Below are positions 16,269-56,689 of a DNA stretch of 64,000 nucleotides, one piece after another. A model generated the notes under the pieces. It did no database searches and was not told where the DNA came from. It saw only the letters and a list, made by a program, of their open reading frames with translations. The position numbers and the translations under genes are program-made. Location of the stretch: the NCBI RefSeq assembly GCF_003994255.1, contig NZ_ML133853.1, forward strand, positions 124,001 to 188,000, given 5' to 3'. Source of the stretch: Brachybacterium paraconglomeratum. Lineage in GTDB: Bacteria; Actinomycetota; Actinomycetes; Actinomycetales; Dermabacteraceae. Position 1 is the stretch's first letter. Each line of letters starts with the position of its first letter.

Positions 16269-16919
16269 CACGCCTCCCTTCCCCGGTCCGTGGACGGGAC
16301 GGCCTCGGTGCCGTCCGCTGTCGAGACAGAGAATCTCTTTCAAGACTCCCGACAACTCACATAATATCGTCGAAACGGACATTCCATAAGGGCTCAGGCG
16401 CAATGGGGATGAATTTGTGGATAACCCACCTGTGGGGAGGAGAGGTCTCGGCCGGCGTGGGATGCGACGGTCGCTCGGGGGCGGGGGCAGGGCGCTGCGG
16501 AGGTGGGAGCGGAGGCAGGGACCAAAGCATCGCGCTGTGGGGGTGGGAGCAGGGGCAGGGATGGGAGCAGGGTGTTCCGAGGGCGGGAGGGCGGGCGCGA
16601 GCAGGGGTGCTGCGGGGGCGGGAGCACGTGCCCGACGGGAACGGGCGCCGAACGAATCCCGAACGGTGACGAAACCAGAGTGGACAGGTGCAGGACAAGG
16701 CAGTCCTCGTGAACACCGGAATCTTTGCCATCCCCGCCCGTCGTGAATTGTCAACAGCATCCCCAAGAATGTGGAAAAGCGCGTCTGGGGAGGAGTCGTC
16801 GGAATTGATTCTCCCGATGAAGACGACGTCGTGCGGCGCACGTCGGCGCGTGCGGAGGGACCCCGCACGCACCACCCGCACCGGCGACCGCGCGCCCCGC
16901 ACCGAGTAGTGTCATCCCC
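16269..16919. other. 651-bp intergenic region with AT-rich patch, DnaA box and G-rich repeats
   Basis: No credible gene. Three parts are visible. First, 16328-16390 is AT-rich for this genome (contains ACATAATATCGTCGAAACGG) and probably holds the promoter of the HNH gene. Second, a perfect DnaA box TGTGGATAA is at 16416-16424 and a one-mismatch box TGTGGAAAA at 16770-16778. Third, 16474-16630 is a purine-rich, imperfectly repetitive run of GGGAGCAGGGGCAGGG-type units on the plus strand that could form G-quadruplexes. Confidence 0.6.
16416..16424 (-). promoter_or_regulatory. perfect DnaA box upstream of the HNH gene
   Basis: TGTGGATAA, the exact complement of the TTATCCACA DnaA box, directly next to the AT-rich patch. 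A related TGTGGGGAG follows 15 bases later. Confidence 0.5.
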
Positions 16920-17471
16920 ATGACCGAACGCACCACGTACCTCCTGGTGGACGGTGAGAACATCGACGCCACCCTCGGCGTCTCGGTGCTCGGCCGACGA
17001 CCCCAGTCCGACGAGCGCCCCCGCTGGAACAAGCTGCTCCAGCACGCCGAGCACGCCTGGCACCAGCCGGTGCGGGGCCTGTTCTTCCTCGCCGTCGGCG
17101 ACAGCCTCCCCTCCGGGTTCGTGCAGGCCCTGATCGCACTGGGGTACAAGGCGATCCCGCTGCGCGGCGAGGGCAAGGTCGTGGACATCGCGATCCAGCG
17201 GACCGCCGAGGCGCTGCAGGACCGCCCGGCGGACGTCATGCTGGTCAGCCACGACAAGGACTTCGTCCCGCAGATGACGGACCTCGCGGCGACCCCGGAC
17301 CGGCGCACGGCGCTGGTCGGGTTCCGCGAGTTCATGGCCACCGACCTGCAGGACATCCCCGGGATCGAGTTCCACGACCTCGAGTACGACGTGCACGCCT
17401 TCACGAGCCGTCTGCCGCGCGTGCGGATCATCGACATCGACGAGTTCGACCCGCTGGAGTTCATCCTCTGA
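16920..17471 (+). CDS. NYN-domain (PIN-like nuclease) protein
   Basis: Protein of 183 residues consisting of one NYN/PIN-like domain. The first acidic motif is YLLVDGENIDATLG (Asp10, Glu12, Asp15), the central RGEGKVVDIAIQRTAEAL near residue 79 carries a further acidic residue, and VMLVSHDKDFVPQM near 105 supplies the C-terminal Asp pair. These acidic residues form the metal site in PIN-type ribonucleases, so RNA cleavage is likely; the RNA target is unknown. The ATG at 16920 starts exactly at the domain; the region upstream contains no SD stronger than GAGTAG-like bases, so the transcript may be nearly leaderless. Confidence 0.83.
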   Translation: MTERTTYLLVDGENIDATLGVSVLGRRPQSDERPRWNKLLQHAEHAWHQPVRGLFFLAVGDSLPSGFVQALIALGYKAIPLRGEGKVVDIAIQRTAEALQDRPADVMLVSHDKDFVPQMTDLAATPDRRTALVGFREFMATDLQDIPGIEFHDLEYDVHAFTSRLPRVRIIDIDEFDPLEFIL

Positions 17472-42385: not shown

Positions 42386-42888
42386 CCGTCCCGGCGGTGC
42401 CCGAGCCGGCAGTGCCCGAGCCCGAGTCCCCCGTCCGCCCTCCTCGCGGCCCCTCCCGGGGGAGCGCGGGGAGGGCGGACGTCGTCCTGCCCGCGCAGCA
42501 GCGCGCCCACGGCAACGGCCCGCCTGACGCATCGCGGGACGCGGAGCGGGTGCCGGTCCTCGTGCTGGTGAGCGCGGACTGGGCGGCGCCGTCCCGGCCC
42601 GCCCCCACGCTGCTCAGGGAGCTCTCACGACGCTGGGGGACGTCCATGCGGTGCCTCCTCGTCGAGGATCCTGAGGACGCTTTCCTGGATCGCTGGGACA
42701 TCGAGCACCTGCCCACCTGGCTCCGCTTCGTCACCGACGACGTAGACGGGGAGCAGAGCGAGCTGCACGGCCTCACCCCCGGGGGAGAGGAGCTCGTCCT
42801 GGGCGGCCCGTGGCGGCTCACGCACCGGCGCAGCGGAGCGCTGCCCAAGCACGTCGTGGACGCGGAGCTCGGACCCGAAGCCGGTTGA
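42382..42888 (+). CDS. thioredoxin-fold protein lacking the CxxC active site
   Basis: 168-residue protein starting at GTG 42382 within the trxB stop region (GTGA), so translationally coupled to trxB. After a Pro-rich, probably disordered N-terminus (about 1-50) comes a thioredoxin-like strand-helix segment VLVLVSADWAAPSRPAPTLL near residue 58. At the position of WCGPC it reads WAAPSR, so both catalytic cysteines are missing. A later LPTWLRF near 110 matches the cis-proline loop of thioredoxin. It therefore cannot be an ordinary redox partner of TrxB; a structural or binding role is more likely. Confidence 0.7.
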   Translation: MTVPAVPEPAVPEPESPVRPPRGPSRGSAGRADVVLPAQQRAHGNGPPDASRDAERVPVLVLVSADWAAPSRPAPTLLRELSRRWGTSMRCLLVEDPEDAFLDRWDIEHLPTWLRFVTDDVDGEQSELHGLTPGGEELVLGGPWRLTHRRSGALPKHVVDAELGPEAG

Positions 42889-42926
42889 GGGGAGCCTCTG
42901 CGGCCGTGGGATCGCCGGCGGCCGCA

Positions 42927-42944
42927 CCGGTCTCTCGAGACCGG
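42927..42944 (+). terminator. weak hairpin after the thioredoxin-fold gene
   Basis: 7-bp stem CCGGTCT/AGACCGG with a CTCG loop, 39 bases past the stop codon. No T-run. Confidence 0.4.
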
Positions 42945-43212
42945 GCTGTCGCGCCCGCGGGCAGGACGAGCTCAGCAGCCACGCCGTGTTCACGATCCAG
43001 TCGTGGTCGTCGCGACCGCGCGCGGGACGAGCTGTCGGGGGGCGACGTCCCGACACATGCTGCCGTGTCCGCATCTGGCTGCGCCCAGGCGAGGTCGACG
43101 CCGCGGCCAACGCGACGGACTCGCGCTGCGCCCGACGGAGCGTGTCATGCGAGGCGTCCTCCACGTCGTGTCAACCTAGGTGCAACCGCCCGCGCTGACG
43201 TGCATGGACGGT

Positions 43213-43456
43213 GTGTCCACATCGGTATTCACATGGTTATCCACAGAGCTGTCCTGGTCTTTCCACAAGGTTGTCCACAATTGAGTGTGGATGACGGTGG
43301 AACCTCTCTGACCACGACCTTCGTCACAGAAGTGCCCCTGACCTGCGGCTTCAGATGATCTCCGAGTCCTGCTGACGTCGGCCCGGGGATGTGCTACGGG
43401 AAGCTGCTGTATCGCAGGTCACATTCTGGACAGTTGGCCCGAAGAGGTTGTCCACA
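43213..43456. promoter_or_regulatory. DnaA box cluster, left flank of the parS array
   Basis: Perfect boxes: TTATCCACA at 43237-43245, TTGTCCACA at 43271-43279 and at 43448-43456. One-mismatch boxes: GTGTCCACA at 43213-43221 and TGTGGATGA (other strand) at 43286-43294; CTTTCCACA at 43259-43267 is weaker. All but one point the same way. Confidence 0.65.
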
Positions 43457-44253
43457 GGGTTCTGCACACTGTGCATGACCATAGAAGGTGCACGTGAATC
43501 ACAAGGCGAGCGGCGGGAGCAGGCGCGCCGTACCGCGCCGCCCACGTGGGCGTCCGCCTCCTTCGTGCAGACATCGAGACTCCGAACAACAGCTCCGGGC
43601 TCCGTGCCGCACTCGCTCCGCGCGGGAGGCCGATGTCTCTCCCCGTGCACCAGAAGCGACGCTCTGTGCCCGATCCACAGGAGCCGCGCCGGCTCGAACA
43701 GCACAGGGGTCGGCGGTGGGAGGAGAGTGAGCAGGTCACGTGCGGCTCGCTCGGACAGGCTCCACTGGCCCGTCGATCATCACAGCGCCATGTTCGCTGT
43801 GAAACTCTCCTGATCTGTTGAGGTAGGCCTCCGCCGCCCGCGGGGTTGTCCCCTCAGCGATTCCCCGGGCGCGCCCGTGCACTGGTAGAGGGGTTTCACG
43901 ACAAACGGCGTCTCGCCGGAGACACGCTCCCTTGGACGGAATACGCATGCGCTCAGGGCCGACGGAGGAAGCCTCCACGCCACGTGGGCAACGCGTTAGT
44001 CGTTGGTCATGAGGTACTGGAGATGCCACCGCCCCGGCGGTCCCTCCGCTCGGCTGGATGATCCATACAGCGGTTCCACGTGCAACGAACAGGGCCGAGA
44101 GCGCGCAGCGTGCAGAGCATGTACGGCGTGACGCCACTCCCGCCACGTCAGGGGGAGAGCCCTTCTGGTGAGACGGAGCCCCATGGTCGACAGCACGGGA
44201 TGGGGAAGGTGAAGCAGCGCAGCGCAACTGACGACCAGCAGAGCCCACCTGCC

Positions 44254-44267
44254 GTTTCACGGGAAAC
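44254..44267. promoter_or_regulatory. parS: parS-like site, 13/14
   Basis: GTTTCACGGGAAAC; the single mismatch is in the central dyad. Confidence 0.75.
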
Positions 44268-44835
44268 CGATGGGCCTGCTGCGAGTGCAGGGGGGCCGCC
44301 TCGATGCTCTGCCGTAGAACGGTTTGACGTGAACCAGGCTCAGTCCCGGGGGGCAGCGCAACGCACAGCTCTGGACTGGGGCTCACGATGTGGAGTTCTG
44401 CACTCATCGGCGTTTCACGGGGAACGCTTCCACTCCCCACTGGAGGCGAGTCGCGGCACGAGATCGTCAGCTTCTCCTTGGATTCGCGCGATCCGACGTG
44501 CATCCACCGAGACGGGCCCTCAGAGTCGCCACTGGGAGGTTCCAGCACCATGTTTCACGGCAAACGCTGTCGTAGGACTGGCGGTTGAGAGCTCGTCTTC
44601 CCAAGAATGCAACCGGCAACATGGGATGAGCACGCGAAGCCTCCAGCCCAAGACACGGCGCTACATTTGTGCTTGATGCAGCCGGAAGCGGAGCTATACA
44701 GCATCACCATCACGAACAGCAGTTCCATGCGAAACCTCAAGGGCCGGGGTCCACCGGCGCACCTGGCAGTCGCTCGGATGCAGGCGGACGGACTCGCCAC
44801 ACAGTCGTCGCGATCGGCTGCGCCTGCCAACCCGA

Positions 44836-44851
44836 TGTTTCACGCGAAACA
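44836..44851. promoter_or_regulatory. parS: parS-like site, 15/16
   Basis: TGTTTCACGCGAAACA, one central mismatch to the full 16-bp consensus; the best copy in the array. Confidence 0.82.
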
Positions 44852-45203
44852 AGGATCAGGGACACTACCCGTGCATTTCTGATGCGTGGCCCGCCAGACA
44901 CTCAGGGTGAGCGGGAGAGTGATCGCGTCCTACTCTGCCCGGTCTAGATGCTGCTGCGCGCGCAGGAGGAGCGGGCGCGTCGGCTCGTTTCACGTGGATC
45001 CCCGCACTCACGATCACCACACCGCCGACTCGGTAATCCGCGACGACACCGCTCATGCCCGGACACGTGCGATTCACGGGAAACATCGGCGGCCCGAAAG
45101 TTCTGTGCTCCTCAGGGACGGGCTTTCCCTCGCTGCGCATACGTCGGTCGAAGTTCATGGAGTGAACACCGTTGACACCCCGGGGAGGGGGCGACCCTGT
45201 GAG

Positions 45204-45217
45204 GGTTCACGTGAAAC
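45204..45217. promoter_or_regulatory. parS: parS-like site, 13/14
   Basis: GGTTCACGTGAAAC: right half-site perfect, one outer mismatch on the left. Confidence 0.75.
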
Positions 45218-45762
45218 CACGCCGCACCACGGTTTTGACGACACTTCCGACACCGGAACTCTGCCTATGACCCATGAGGCGTCGCGCGAAGCAGAATAAG
45301 AGCGGTCCGAAAGCCCTGGTCGGCGGACTTTGGCCAGCGTTTCGCGTGGAACAGTGCACTGGGCAAGTTGACATGACGGGATCACTGCGACGGATACGGC
45401 ACTGTTCCCCGCGACGGACATCTTCCACGTGGGTACCACCGGCCCGGCAGAGGCGGGGCAGCTCGTCCCCCGCATACCGCGGACTCTCCTCCTTCGAGGA
45501 TCGTGCACCGCGAGCCCTGGAACGCACGTCCCAGGACCAGGCGACTCGGTTTCCCGTGGAACTCCCCAGGGGAGCGAGTCAGCCGAGGCCAGCGTTGCAT
45601 GAATGGCATCAGATGCTCGCACAGGCATCCTCAGGAGACCGGAGCATCTCAGTGCCGACACCTGCGGCCCTCGCAATCTGCAGCGGGGAGCCACATGTTT
45701 CCCGGGAAACCACGAGGGACCGAGGCACGTAAGGACTCCGCTTCCACAAGGGTGCACACATC

Positions 45763-45824
45763 TGTGGACAACCACTCTCCGGTGGAGAAGTGCAGTCCAC
45801 AGAGTTGTACACAACGGTGGACAA
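45763..45824. promoter_or_regulatory. DnaA box cluster, right flank of the parS array
   Basis: Perfect TGTGGACAA at 45763-45771, one-mismatch TTGTACACA at 45805-45813 and GGTGGACAA at 45816-45824, with a weaker CAGTCCACA between. It begins 53 bases after the last parS-like site. Confidence 0.55.
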
Positions 45825-46018
45825 GCTCCGTTCTGGACCCTGGCCTGCACCGATGGCGCGGATTCATCCCCCGGTACGAGGGCGACGCGGGGCTGGGGAA
45901 GGGGCTGCGGAGGGAAGAGGAAGACAGGTGCGTCCACACCGCGAGCACCGTACGGAGCTGACACACATAGCGTCTATGGCAGATCCGTGTTTACTGTGAC
46001 ACCGCTCACACTAGAGGA

Positions 46019-46042
46019 GGGACCCTTTCGCTGAAGGGTCCC
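46019..46042. terminator. hairpin downstream of parB
   Basis: 9-bp perfect stem GGGACCCTT/AAGGGTCCC, 6-base loop, about 190 bases past the parB stop. It may end the parA-parB transcript. Confidence 0.55.
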
Positions 46043-46232
46043 CTCGGGATGCTGGTATTCCTCGCGGGCGAACGCGGAGTTTGACCGGCGGGAGGGGGAC
46101 GGGACGAGCACGCTCTCGTCGGTCAGAAGAGGAGCGCGCTCGTCATCGGGACGACGGCATGGCGCACGTTCCACACCGCAGCACGTCAGCGCTGCAGCGA
46201 GCGGGTGCGGAACGGACTCCGCACTCCCCGAG

Positions 46233-53292: not shown

Positions 53293-53336
53293 TTGTCCAC
53301 ATCAGCGATCCACAGCGGTGAGGATAATGTGGAAAA
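53293..53336. promoter_or_regulatory. DnaA boxes in the dnaA promoter
   Basis: Perfect TTGTCCACA at 53293-53301, weaker CGATCCACA at 53306-53314 and one-mismatch TGTGGAAAA on the other strand at 53328-53336, overlapping GATAAT. The layout fits autoregulation of dnaA. Confidence 0.68.
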
Positions 53337-53375: not shown

Positions 53376-55076
53376 ATGCCGGAGGCGAACGCCGACGCGA
53401 TCTGGGACAGCACGCTGAGCATCCTGCGCCGCGACGACACCGTCTCCCAGCGTGTGATGGCCCTGCTCACCCTCTCCCGCCTGATGGCCGTGGTCGCGGA
53501 CACCGCCCTGCTCGCCGTGCCCTCCACCTCGGCGAAGGAGCTGATCGAGAACCGGATCGCGGGCTCCCTGAAGGCCGCCCTCAGCGAGGCCACCGGCAAG
53601 GACCTCCGCTTCGCCGTGACGGTCGACGAGTCGCTGCTGCTGGAGGGGGACGACGAGGACGAGGCCCCTGCACCGCCGCTGACCTCCTCCTCGACCGCCC
53701 GCAGTGCACATCCTGTGGACAACGATGTGGACAGTTCCACGGGGGGTGTCCACACCCCGCCCTTCCGTCGTGGACGGGGCTCCGTGCTCCCCTCCGAGCC
53801 CGCCTCCGGCCGGCCCGCGCTGCCCTCGAGCAGCACCCCGGACTCGGCCGCCTCCGCCGCCTCGCGCTTCGGCCGCGGGGAGGACGAGTTCCACGGCTCC
53901 GCGGCCGACGATCCCAGCGCCTATGCGGGGATGTCCGCCCTCAGCGGCGCCTCCGCCCCCTCCCCGGGACCGGCGCCGCCCCGCCCCGCCCCCGCCGGCG
54001 GCGCCTTGACCCTCGGCGAGGACTCGCGCCTGAACAGCAAATACACCTTCGACACCTTCGTGATCGGCTCCTCGAACCGCTTCGCGCAGGCGGCCGCGTC
54101 GGCCGTCGCGGAGACGCCCGCGAAGGCGTACAACCCGCTGTTCATCTACGGCGGATCCGGTCTGGGCAAGACCCACCTGCTGCACGCGGTGGGCCACTAC
54201 GCCCAGAGCCTCTACCCCGACGTGGTGGTGCGCTACGTGAACTCGGAGGAGTTCACCAACGAGTTCATCAACTCAGTGCAGTCCGGCCAGTTCGGCAAGG
54301 CGCAGGAGTTCCAGCGCCGCTATCGCGACATCGACATCCTGCTGATCGACGACATCCAGTTCCTGCAGCGAGCGCCGGAGACGATGGAGGCGTTCTTCCA
54401 CACCTTCAACACGCTCTACAACTCGGACAAGCAGATCGTGATCACCTCGGACCTGCCGCCGAAGGAGCTCGGCGGCTTCGAGGACCGGATGCGCTCCCGC
54501 TTCGAGATGGGCCTGATGACGGACGTGCAGCCGCCGGACCTCGAGACCCGCATCGCGATCCTGCGCAAGAAGGTCGCCCAGGAGAACACCGGCGAGGTGC
54601 CGCACGAGGTGCTGGAGTACATCGCCAGCCACATCGCCACGAACATCCGCGAGCTCGAGGGCGCCCTGATCCGCGTGCAGGCGCTGCACTCCCTCTCCCG
54701 CCAGCCGATGGACGTCACCCTCGCCGAGTCCGTGCTGAAGGATCTGCTCTCCCACGACGACGGCGCGCAGATCACCGCCTCGACGATCATCGCCCAGACC
54801 GCGACCTACTTCGGGCTCTCGGTGGAGGAGATCGTGGGCACCGGCCGCAGTCGGCGCCTGGTCTCCGCGCGGCAGATCGGCATGTACCTGTGCCGGGAGC
54901 TGACGGACATGCCGCTGATCCGCATCGGCGAGGAGTTCGGCGGCCGCGACCACACCACCGTCATGCACGCGAACAAGAAGATCAGCGAGCTGATGAAGGA
55001 GCGTCGGGCGATCTTCAACCAGGTCACGGAGCTCACGGCGAGGATCAAGAGCTCGAGCTCCTCGGCCCGGCAGTGA
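53376..55076 (+). CDS. dnaA: replication initiator DnaA
   Basis: ATP-dependent initiator of 566 residues. Domain I is at 1-90; a variable Ser/Pro-rich domain II covers about 90-215; domain III (AAA+) has [19 protein letters not shown], Walker [17 protein letters not shown] near 258 and [10 protein letters not shown] near 325; the C-terminal DNA-binding domain has [14 protein letters not shown] near 525. GAGGGGGAC precedes the ATG. Three DnaA boxes lie inside the domain II coding sequence (53714-53754). Confidence 0.97.
53714..53754. promoter_or_regulatory. three DnaA boxes inside the dnaA coding sequence
   Basis: Perfect TGTGGACAA (53714-53722), one-mismatch TGTGGACAG (53726-53734) and one-mismatch GTGTCCACA in the opposite direction (53746-53754). 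They encode part of the poorly conserved domain II, where codon choice is free to accommodate them. Confidence 0.6.
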
Positions 55077-55564
55077 CGCGGGAATGACGCGGCAGTGACG
55101 CAGCCGACCGCGTGAGCATGCCGGAGAATGTCATCCCAGGTCAGGCCGACGTTCTCCCCAATTGTGGATAACTCTGTGGACAGTGTGGAATGACGAGCAT
55201 CTGCGCAGGAGCCGATGTGCATGGAGGAATGACAAGAATCTGACGGCGGCGGCGATCCGTGCACAGGTCGTGCACGAGCTTCCTGTGATTGTCGACGAGT
55301 CGTCCACGTCGACAGTGTCGGCTATGACCTGCTGAGATGTCGGTTATCCACGAGATCCACAGCCGTGATGATGAGGTCTGTAGGTTCTTGCTCGTCGTGG
55401 ATGTGGAGGGCGGGGGGTCGGCAGCAGCGGCCGAGGAGCACGGAGGAGCAGGGGCGGAAGTCAAGGATCTGCGGCGGTGTGTCGTCGGACGGCTCCGAGA
55501 ACCGATACGCTGTCCACCGTTCGATCACGATCAGGCTTTCGACCACTGTGAAGGAGTGGCAACG
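55077..55564. other. dnaA-dnaN intergenic region, candidate oriC
   Basis: 488 bp without a gene. Boxes seen: perfect TGTGGATAA at 55163-55171, TGTGGACAG at 55175-55183, TGTGGAATG at 55184-55192, TTATCCACG at 55344-55352 and AGATCCACA at 55353-55361. Only one box is perfect; I see no long AT-rich unwinding element. This is the usual place of the actinobacterial origin. Confidence 0.65.
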
Positions 55565-56689
55565 GTGAAGTTCCACCTCGACCGCGGCGTCCTCGGCGAC
55601 GCCGTCTCCTGGGCCACCCGCACCCTCCCTGTCCGTCCGGCGATGCCGATCCTGCAGGGCGTGCGCATCGTCGCCGATGCGGGCGGCGAGCTGCAGCTCT
55701 CGACCTTCGACTACGAGGTCAGCGCCCAGATCCGTCTCGAGGCGGAGATCGAGCAGCCGGGCGAGGTGCTGGTCCAGGGGCGCATGCTCTCGGACATCGT
55801 CCGCGCCCTGCCGAACAAGGACGTCACCGTCGCGCTCGAGGGCACGAAGCTCCAGGTCCGCTGCGGCAGCGCCCGCTTCGCGCTCGCGACCCTCCCGGTC
55901 GAGGAGTACCCGCAGCTGCCCACCATGCCCCCGGTCGCCGGCACCGTCGCGGCCGACGTGTTCGCCGAGGCGATCTCGCAGGTCACCGTCGCGGCCTCGA
56001 AGGACGACACCCTCCCGCTGCTGACCGGCGTGAAGGTCGAGATCAGCGGCGAGACCATGACCCTGATGGCCACCGACCGCTACCGCCTGGCGCTGCGCGA
56101 GCTGACCTGGAACCCCTCGTCGCCCGGCGCCGAGCTCACCGCCCTGGTCCGCGGCCGCACCCTCCACGAGGTCGCCCGCTCGCTCGCGACCGGCGGCGGC
56201 GTCGAGATCGCGCTGTCCGACGAGGACTCCGCGAACCTGATCGGCTTCGAGGCCGGCGGCCGCCGCACCACCTCCACCCTCGTCGACGGCGACTACCCGC
56301 CGGTGCGACGCCTGTTCCCCGAGACCACCGCGATCACTGCCGTCGTCTCCACCGGCGCGCTGATCGACGCGGTCAAGCGCGTCTCCCTGGTCGCCGAGCG
56401 GAACACTCCCGTGCGCCTGTCCTTCTCCGAGGGCCAGGTCGCGCTCGAGGCCGGCGCCGGCGACGACGCCCAGGCCAGCGAGGTGCTCGAGGCACAGCTC
56501 GAGGGCGAGGACCTCGTCGTCGGCTTCAACTCGGGCTTCCTGCTCGACGGCCTCGGCGCGCTCGGCAGCGAGTTCGCCCGCCTGACCTTCACCGACTCGA
56601 TCAAGCCCTCGGTGATGACCGGGCAGGACTCGCTCGAGGGCGAGCCCGACAACTCCTACCGGTACCTCATCATGCCGATGCGGATCTGA
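55565..56689 (+). CDS. dnaN: DNA polymerase III beta sliding clamp
   Basis: Ring-shaped processivity clamp of 374 residues. The GTG at 55565 follows AAGGAG and starts at VKFHLDRGVLGDAVSWATR, the expected N-terminus. The end YRYLIMPMRI is the family's conserved C-terminus, and three clamp repeats can be followed. 20 bases precede recF. Confidence 0.97.
   Translation: MKFHLDRGVLGDAVSWATRTLPVRPAMPILQGVRIVADAGGELQLSTFDYEVSAQIRLEAEIEQPGEVLVQGRMLSDIVRALPNKDVTVALEGTKLQVRCGSARFALATLPVEEYPQLPTMPPVAGTVAADVFAEAISQVTVAASKDDTLPLLTGVKVEISGETMTLMATDRYRLALRELTWNPSSPGAELTALVRGRTLHEVARSLATGGGVEIALSDEDSANLIGFEAGGRRTTSTLVDGDYPPVRRLFPETTAITAVVSTGALIDAVKRVSLVAERNTPVRLSFSEGQVALEAGAGDDAQASEVLEAQLEGEDLVVGFNSGFLLDGLGALGSEFARLTFTDSIKPSVMTGQDSLEGEPDNSYRYLIMPMRI

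Follow-up and report, generated by a model that had tools for sequence, protein, structure and literature searches.

Where does replication of the Brachybacterium paraconglomeratum chromosome begin, if the gap between dnaA and dnaN, the conventional position of oriC, carries exactly one perfect DnaA box (TTRTCCACA)? We studied this question in a stretch of 64,000 nucleotides, hereafter the window. Its gene order, parB, yidC and dnaA-dnaN, is the usual actinobacterial one, while rnpA, rpmH and recF are putative assignments made by position. The gap is bordered by the end of dnaA at 55076 and the start of dnaN at 55565. Among named genomes, the closest YidC relatives belong to Brachybacterium. 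The genome collection covered the same genus with 37 genomes and the rest of the family with nine more. From 41 relatives the region from parB to dnaN was taken, which together with the window gave 42 loci; three of these lack the gap, and the whole gap was obtained from 38 relatives and the window (39 gaps). The features discussed below are collected in Table 1.

Table 1. Features in and around the dnaA-dnaN gap, in window coordinates.
Feature	Coordinates	Strand	Basis
DnaA boxes upstream of dnaA (probably dnaA regulation)	53293..53336		box scan
dnaA	53376..55076	+	aligned with PDB 8btg chain A
Three DnaA boxes inside dnaA	53714..53754		box scan
dnaA-dnaN gap, proposed oriC	55077..55564		box enrichment; conserved blocks in 39 aligned gaps; best matrix match of the window
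Perfect DnaA box TTATCCACA	55163..55171	-	first of the minus-strand pair with 12-bp spacing
DnaA box, 1 mismatch, 12 bp after the perfect box	55175..55183	-	box scan; recurrence in the family
Weak box-like block TGTGGA	55184..55192	-	conserved in gap alignment
TGTGCA core, possible weak box	55216..55221		gap alignment
TGCACA core, possible weak box	55260..55265		gap alignment
First tandem box TTATCCACG	55344..55352	+	1 mismatch; alignment; matrix score 28.4
Second tandem box AGATCCACA, directly adjoining the first	55353..55361	+	2 mismatches; same 9-bp register in other families
Three DnaA-trio-like triplets, 3'-ACT-5' x3 (TGATGATGA on plus strand)	55366..55374	-	plus-strand A at +7, +10, +13
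Decayed box CCCTCCACA; several relatives have a better one there	55402..55410	-	TGTGGA (nearly) invariant in alignment

DnaA boxes in the dnaA-dnaN gap

When boxes were counted by mismatches to TTRTCCACA, the gap was found to hold one perfect box, three boxes with at most one mismatch and nine with at most two. The perfect box lies on the minus strand at 55163, the one-mismatch boxes at 55175 (minus strand) and 55344 (plus strand), and six further boxes have two mismatches. This recount (one perfect, two one-mismatch and six two-mismatch boxes) agrees with the initial annotation, which had seen a single perfect box and a handful of weak ones. Shuffled gaps contain 0.007, 0.16 and 1.9 boxes at zero, at most one and at most two mismatches, respectively. 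In 2000 Markov shuffles of the gap, three boxes with at most one mismatch were rarely reached (P = 0.0015) and nine boxes with at most two mismatches were never attained. Perfect boxes in the gap are few, and the boxes in total are clearly enriched; a box cluster between dnaA and dnaN, one of the criteria for oriC, is found here. Genome-wide there are 24 perfect boxes, of which eight lie inside the window. Folded as a single strand, the gap is unremarkable (z of -0.13).

For comparison, 51 further loci were tried, of which four were dropped for want of a dnaA or dnaN match and 47 were kept (45 from outside the family and two from Dermabacteraceae), and their boxes were counted by the same rule. 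The medians over these 47 actinobacterial gaps are 0, 4 and 9 boxes at zero, at most one and at most two mismatches. The counts of the window sit in the middle of this range, and therefore its gap is not box-poor. The initial annotation had contrasted the gap with origins of Streptomyces and mycobacteria, and only the first half of this contrast stands: the three Streptomyces-like gaps (f20; the family names of f20, f5 and f36 are inferred) have 11-17 boxes with at most one mismatch and 22-26 with at most two, whereas the four mycobacteria-like gaps (f7) have 2-3 and 4-9. The label of f7 comes from one DnaN fragment with PDB entry 5ah2 as its best match, which we take to be a M. smegmatis entry. 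The oriC of M. tuberculosis is described in PMC2607554 as having 13 boxes, which are called imperfect there.

Judging from the alignment of the family gaps, the box layout is a recurrent one across Dermabacteraceae. Minus-strand boxes 12 bp apart, each with at most one mismatch, are present as a pair in 34 of the 39 gaps, and 23 of these 34 have a plus-strand box (at most one mismatch) 157-178 bp beyond the pair; where such a box is missing at this threshold, the aligned site is weaker. Among the conserved blocks of the 39 aligned gaps are the boxes, including the weak ones at 55184, 55216, 55260, 55353 and 55402. Further conserved blocks cover the triplet stretch and lie toward the dnaN end of the gap.

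A candidate unwinding module of tandem boxes and triplets

The initial annotation had reported no clear unwinding element. We do find a candidate at 55344-55374, which combines tandem boxes and a triplet repeat, has the best matrix score and coincides with the least stable stretch when averaged over 39 loci. After the two boxes at 55344 and 55353, the plus strand continues with GCCG and then with TGATGATGA. Comparable box pairs of other families precede CC-TAC-TAC-TAC or a variant of this sequence, which reads as the DnaA-trio 3'-GAT-5' on the opposite strand. The search rule for basal unwinding systems (BUS) given in PMC8287927, from which we also took the DnaA-trio consensus, asks for tandem boxes within two and four mismatches of the standard and no more than 3 bp apart, together with at least three triplets 3'-NAN-5' within 16 bp of the box; for the function of the trios we follow PMC6669920. 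The adjoining boxes TTATCCACG and AGATCCACA form a tandem pair of the kind that this rule describes.

The register of the triplets was counted from the end of the second tandem box. In 31 outgroup groups, each represented by one gap, the plus strand has A at all three of +7, +10 and +13 in 26 groups, at two in three groups and at none in two, and the neighbouring registers show three A in 0/31 and 1/31 groups. Among the 39 Dermabacteraceae gaps, A is found at all three positions in 34 and at two in five.

A weight matrix of 38 positions was then built from other families, with the Dermabacteraceae left out. Its top score in the 64 kb is 28.4 at 55344, followed by 20.2 (54394, inside dnaA) and 18.3 (43441). 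The best score falls inside the gap in all 39 Dermabacteraceae loci that hold it, the window included, and the three loci without the gap reach at most 9.9. The possibility, raised in the initial annotation, of an origin at this place with weak sites is strengthened by these data: the weak boxes stand at conserved places, and a matrix from other families points to the gap in every locus having one. A relaxed text pattern, derived from the family alignment, has its single match in the own genome at 55344; it matched 31 of 47 family genomes with exactly one match per genome, and the backward control gave 0.

Two other ways of searching were dropped. Without boxes, scoring places the triplets of the window no higher than 84th over the 18.5 kb scanned, and they are of no use as a site finder. 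A strict text pattern for classical trios matches in 82 of 295 genomes of the class, the own genome not being among them, and was not kept as a count of origins because some matches lie away from dnaN. Inspection of the family alignment by eye showed no canonical 3'-GAT triplets beside the minus-strand boxes at 55163 and 55175.

Averaged over the 39 loci, the duplex is weakest 20 bp past the point where the tandem pair begins. Taken one by one, 26 of the loci have their minimum 15-24 bp past this point and 13 have it elsewhere, among them the window, whose weakest single 30-mer is found 130 bp to the left of the tandem boxes and not at the triplets.

Altered triplets and the trio-binding pocket of DnaA

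The first trio usually starts with G. In the window, the trios read 3'-ACT-ACT-ACT-5', with C as the middle base in the register that is shared with other families. Among 38 Dermabacteraceae rows (L105 being treated separately), nine share these three triplets, 14 have ACT-TCT-TCT, and 31 have ACT as trio 1. Trios 1-3 of these 38 rows amount to 114 cells, and 99 of them have C in the middle. According to PMC10721633, exchange of the middle A for C keeps a similar separation rate in B. subtilis, C being tolerated because its amino group meets Asn187, and the cryo-EM structure has the first trio base G contacted by Arg202 and Glu228.

The residues of this pocket were read by alignment to PDB 8btg chain A. 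In DnaA of the window, codon 313 encodes Gln (Arg202 in B. subtilis), 333 Ala (Lys222), 334 Pro (Glu223) and 339 Ala (Glu228), while Glu183, Asn187 and Ile190 are retained and Val replaces Ile193. Positions 222, 223 and 228 are Ala, Pro and Ala in 38 of 38 Dermabacteraceae rows, and the Arg202 position is Gln or His in the family. Of 110 rows outside the Dermabacteraceae, 102 retain Lys222 and seven have Arg there, with one row unread. In addition, DnaA of the 38 Dermabacteraceae rows has three extra residues past position 195 when compared to B. subtilis, which fall within 54282-54320 in the window, beside the single-strand binding motif.

The row set apart, L105, is labelled as belonging to the same family (genus g5). 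It has Lys, Thr and Glu at positions 222, 223 and 228 and the triplets GAT-AAT-GAT. Its branch on the DnaA tree is very long, and its family label deserves a check.

Residue 228 and the first trio base were compared across Actinomycetes. From 180 sequences tried, 172 gave both gap and DnaA; trios were called in 149 rows and remained uncalled in 23, of which 11 belong to f5. Two genomes stand twice among the 149 rows (L119/L161 and L120/L240). The calling rule ignores the first trio base but uses the A positions, and the constancy of the third base is therefore to be taken from the register counts at +7, +10 and +13 and not from the called rows. Where Glu228 is kept (88 rows), trio 1 starts with G in 77 and with another base in 11; where it is lost (61 rows), no trio 1 starts with G. 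The losses are found in f1 (Ala), f5 (Ala, once Ser) and f36 (Gln). Counted by family, again with L105 apart, 36 families have Glu and mostly G, three have Glu and not mostly G (f2, f17 and f21), none has lost Glu and carries G, and three have lost Glu and carry no G, which gives a Fisher p of 0.0017 if families were independent. In f2, the trio base has changed while Glu228 stays. The middle trio base over the 149 rows is C in 217, A in 183, G in 34 and T in 13 cells; in the Actinomycetes sampled, C is about as frequent as A in the middle, and the third base (T) is the steadiest.

Accordingly, the guanine-capturing glutamate would have been lost from DnaA in the Dermabacteraceae, f5 (probably Microbacteriaceae) and f36 (probably Bifidobacteriaceae), whose origins show A instead of the guanine. 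We tentatively regard this as a co-adaptation of origin and initiator, at slightly less than even odds. A search of the open-licence literature for a published link between residue 228 and trio 1 found none. Inheritance only, with a few old lineages carrying both states by chance, also has a substantial chance of explaining the association, though one below a half. On the DnaA tree, which was made with the pocket columns left out and has many unresolved forks, residue 228 needs at least two changes and the trio base eight. Independent losses are therefore few and an independent-pairs test is powerless, so that co-adaptation is suggested and not proven. Other DnaA columns correlate as well: when 337 columns were ranked by family-weighted mutual information, which ignores ancestry and favours variable columns, position 425 came first, 228 second and 223 fourth. 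Against inheritance only speaks that residue 228, second in this ranking, had been named beforehand from its contact in the cryo-EM structure (PMC10721633), and that the three families have three residue outcomes (Ala or Ser, and Gln) and one base outcome. Nor does the GC content of the gap offer an explanation, as it overlaps between rows that lost Glu228 (0.33-0.70) and rows that kept it with G (0.35-0.78).

One uncalled f5 row, L181, has a G-first triplet behind a very poor box pair (score 10.0). We do not think that this triplet is the site; it is the nearest to a counter-example.

The trio code need not have changed at all if the triplet register is shifted by one base to 3'-CAC-TAC-TAC-5', which places A in the middle, in line with the published rule. 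Only in this shifted register does the window offer three 3'-NAN-5' triplets. We consider this reading unlikely, since the family does not maintain the shifted register (at plus-strand +8, 19 of the 39 gaps have T and 20 have A) and conservation between families is seen at +7, +10 and +13.

Box clusters outside the gap and the position of the origin

Boxes also cluster elsewhere in the window. The interval from yidC to dnaA has at least one box with at most one mismatch in each of 39 loci, and the coding part of dnaA does so in 38 of 39. A non-coding locus of 3.3 kb adjoining parB (42888-46232) holds 15 parS-like sites (at most three mismatches to what we take to be the parS consensus) and eight DnaA boxes near its two ends. 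In 200 shuffles of this locus, no parS-like site was found in 178, one in 21 and two in one. The region on the parB side has 6-18 parS-like sites and at least two boxes in 42 of 42 loci, one of which has only 1.6 kb there. We read the 3.3-kb locus as a centromere with a DnaA-box cluster, and this cluster perhaps serves titration or coupling to ParA. The clusters at the dnaA promoter, in the dnaA gene and in the parS locus may be regulators of initiation. Three further boxes (at most one mismatch) lie within 363 bp at 16416-16778, upstream of an ORF starting near 16920.

The initial annotation had considered that the origin lies partly elsewhere. The clusters are real and recurrent, but the best scores outside the gap are 20.2 and 18.3 against 28.4, which does not favour this view. 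Since an unwinding module is visible in the gap, with the top matrix score in 64 kb, and the clusters elsewhere come without such a module, the origin most likely lies in the gap. Neither GC skew nor third-position skew was strong enough over 184 kb to locate a switch.

The box clusters could still be required if the origin were bipartite: the unwinding site would lie in the gap, and DnaA would be loaded with the help of boxes clustered at the dnaA promoter, within dnaA or in the parS locus, as is the case for the two B. subtilis box regions around dnaA. The recurrence of boxes between yidC and dnaA and inside dnaA would fit such an arrangement. However, DnaA boxes at the dnaA promoter are expected anyway for dnaA autoregulation, and the gap alone matches other actinobacterial gaps in layout and box number. 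Bipartite origins with dnaA as the spacer are known (PMC4285127), and we give this arrangement a small chance here. That the parS-rich locus at 42.9-46.2 kb is itself the main origin is highly improbable: it has four perfect boxes against one in the gap, is AT-richer than its surroundings and has boxes in 42 of 42 loci, but the matrix scan found no module of tandem boxes and triplets there (best score 18.3 against 28.4), and a parS array beside parB suffices to explain why the locus is kept.

We thus return to the gap as the chromosomal origin, with an ordinary actinobacterial build, an opening at triplets that is seeded by tandem boxes, and triplets and DnaA that have shifted in the family; for this reading as a whole we estimate a probability of roughly 85%. 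The perfect box and the chain of conserved weaker boxes would gather DnaA in the gap. The tandem pair at 55344/55353, which points to the right, would then seed a DnaA-ATP filament on one strand of the adjoining triplets at 55366-55374, and the duplex would be opened at this repeat as in the B. subtilis BUS. In the Dermabacteraceae, 3'-G(A/C)T-5' triplets appear to have given way mostly to 3'-ACT-5' and 3'-TCT-5'. Their DnaA would have lost the contacts to the trio guanine (Glu228 to Ala; Arg202 to Gln or His) and kept Asn187 for the middle base. The data show the sites with their conservation and register, and the residue changes with their association to the triplets; binding of DnaA and opening at the gap are predicted from sequence, as is a functional tie between the changes in triplets and residues.

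With this reading, there is no longer reason to suspect that the origin is missing or displaced, and a likely unwinding site can be given to the base. An origin of the usual kind, most of whose boxes are weak, accounts for most of the observation that raised the question. What remains noteworthy is that the triplets have changed and that DnaA has lost the corresponding guanine contacts. Several lineages seem to be without both the guanine and its contact, which would make them a natural test of the nucleobase-capture model of B. subtilis, and many lineages use C where this model predicted that C works. Searches that insist on A as the middle base would overlook some such origins. If the co-adaptation is true, the trio code would be lineage-specific and readable from DnaA.

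Comparison with known origins

The candidate module resembles the B. subtilis BUS (DnaA-boxes 6/7 and DnaA-trios; for the trio DNA we used what we take to be its sequence) in its co-oriented tandem boxes, a short GC-rich spacer, a triplet repeat and its place between dnaA and dnaN. It differs in having the triplets 3'-ACT-5' and not 3'-GAT-5', and the window DnaA is without Lys222, Glu223, Glu228 and Arg202. The Streptomyces-type oriC, as represented by the three f20 gaps, shares the tandem boxes at a distance of nine bases, with triplets after them and then a minus-strand box. Unlike the window, these gaps are 857-1229 bp long, have 11-17 boxes with at most one mismatch and carry classical 3'-GAT triplets. 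The mycobacterial type, represented by the four f7 gaps, is similar to the window in gap length and, by the same rule, in box counts, whereas its trio 1 is mostly 3'-GAT or AAT and Glu228 is kept. In M. tuberculosis itself, PMC2607554 maps opening near the dnaA end, unlike the position of the module in the window.
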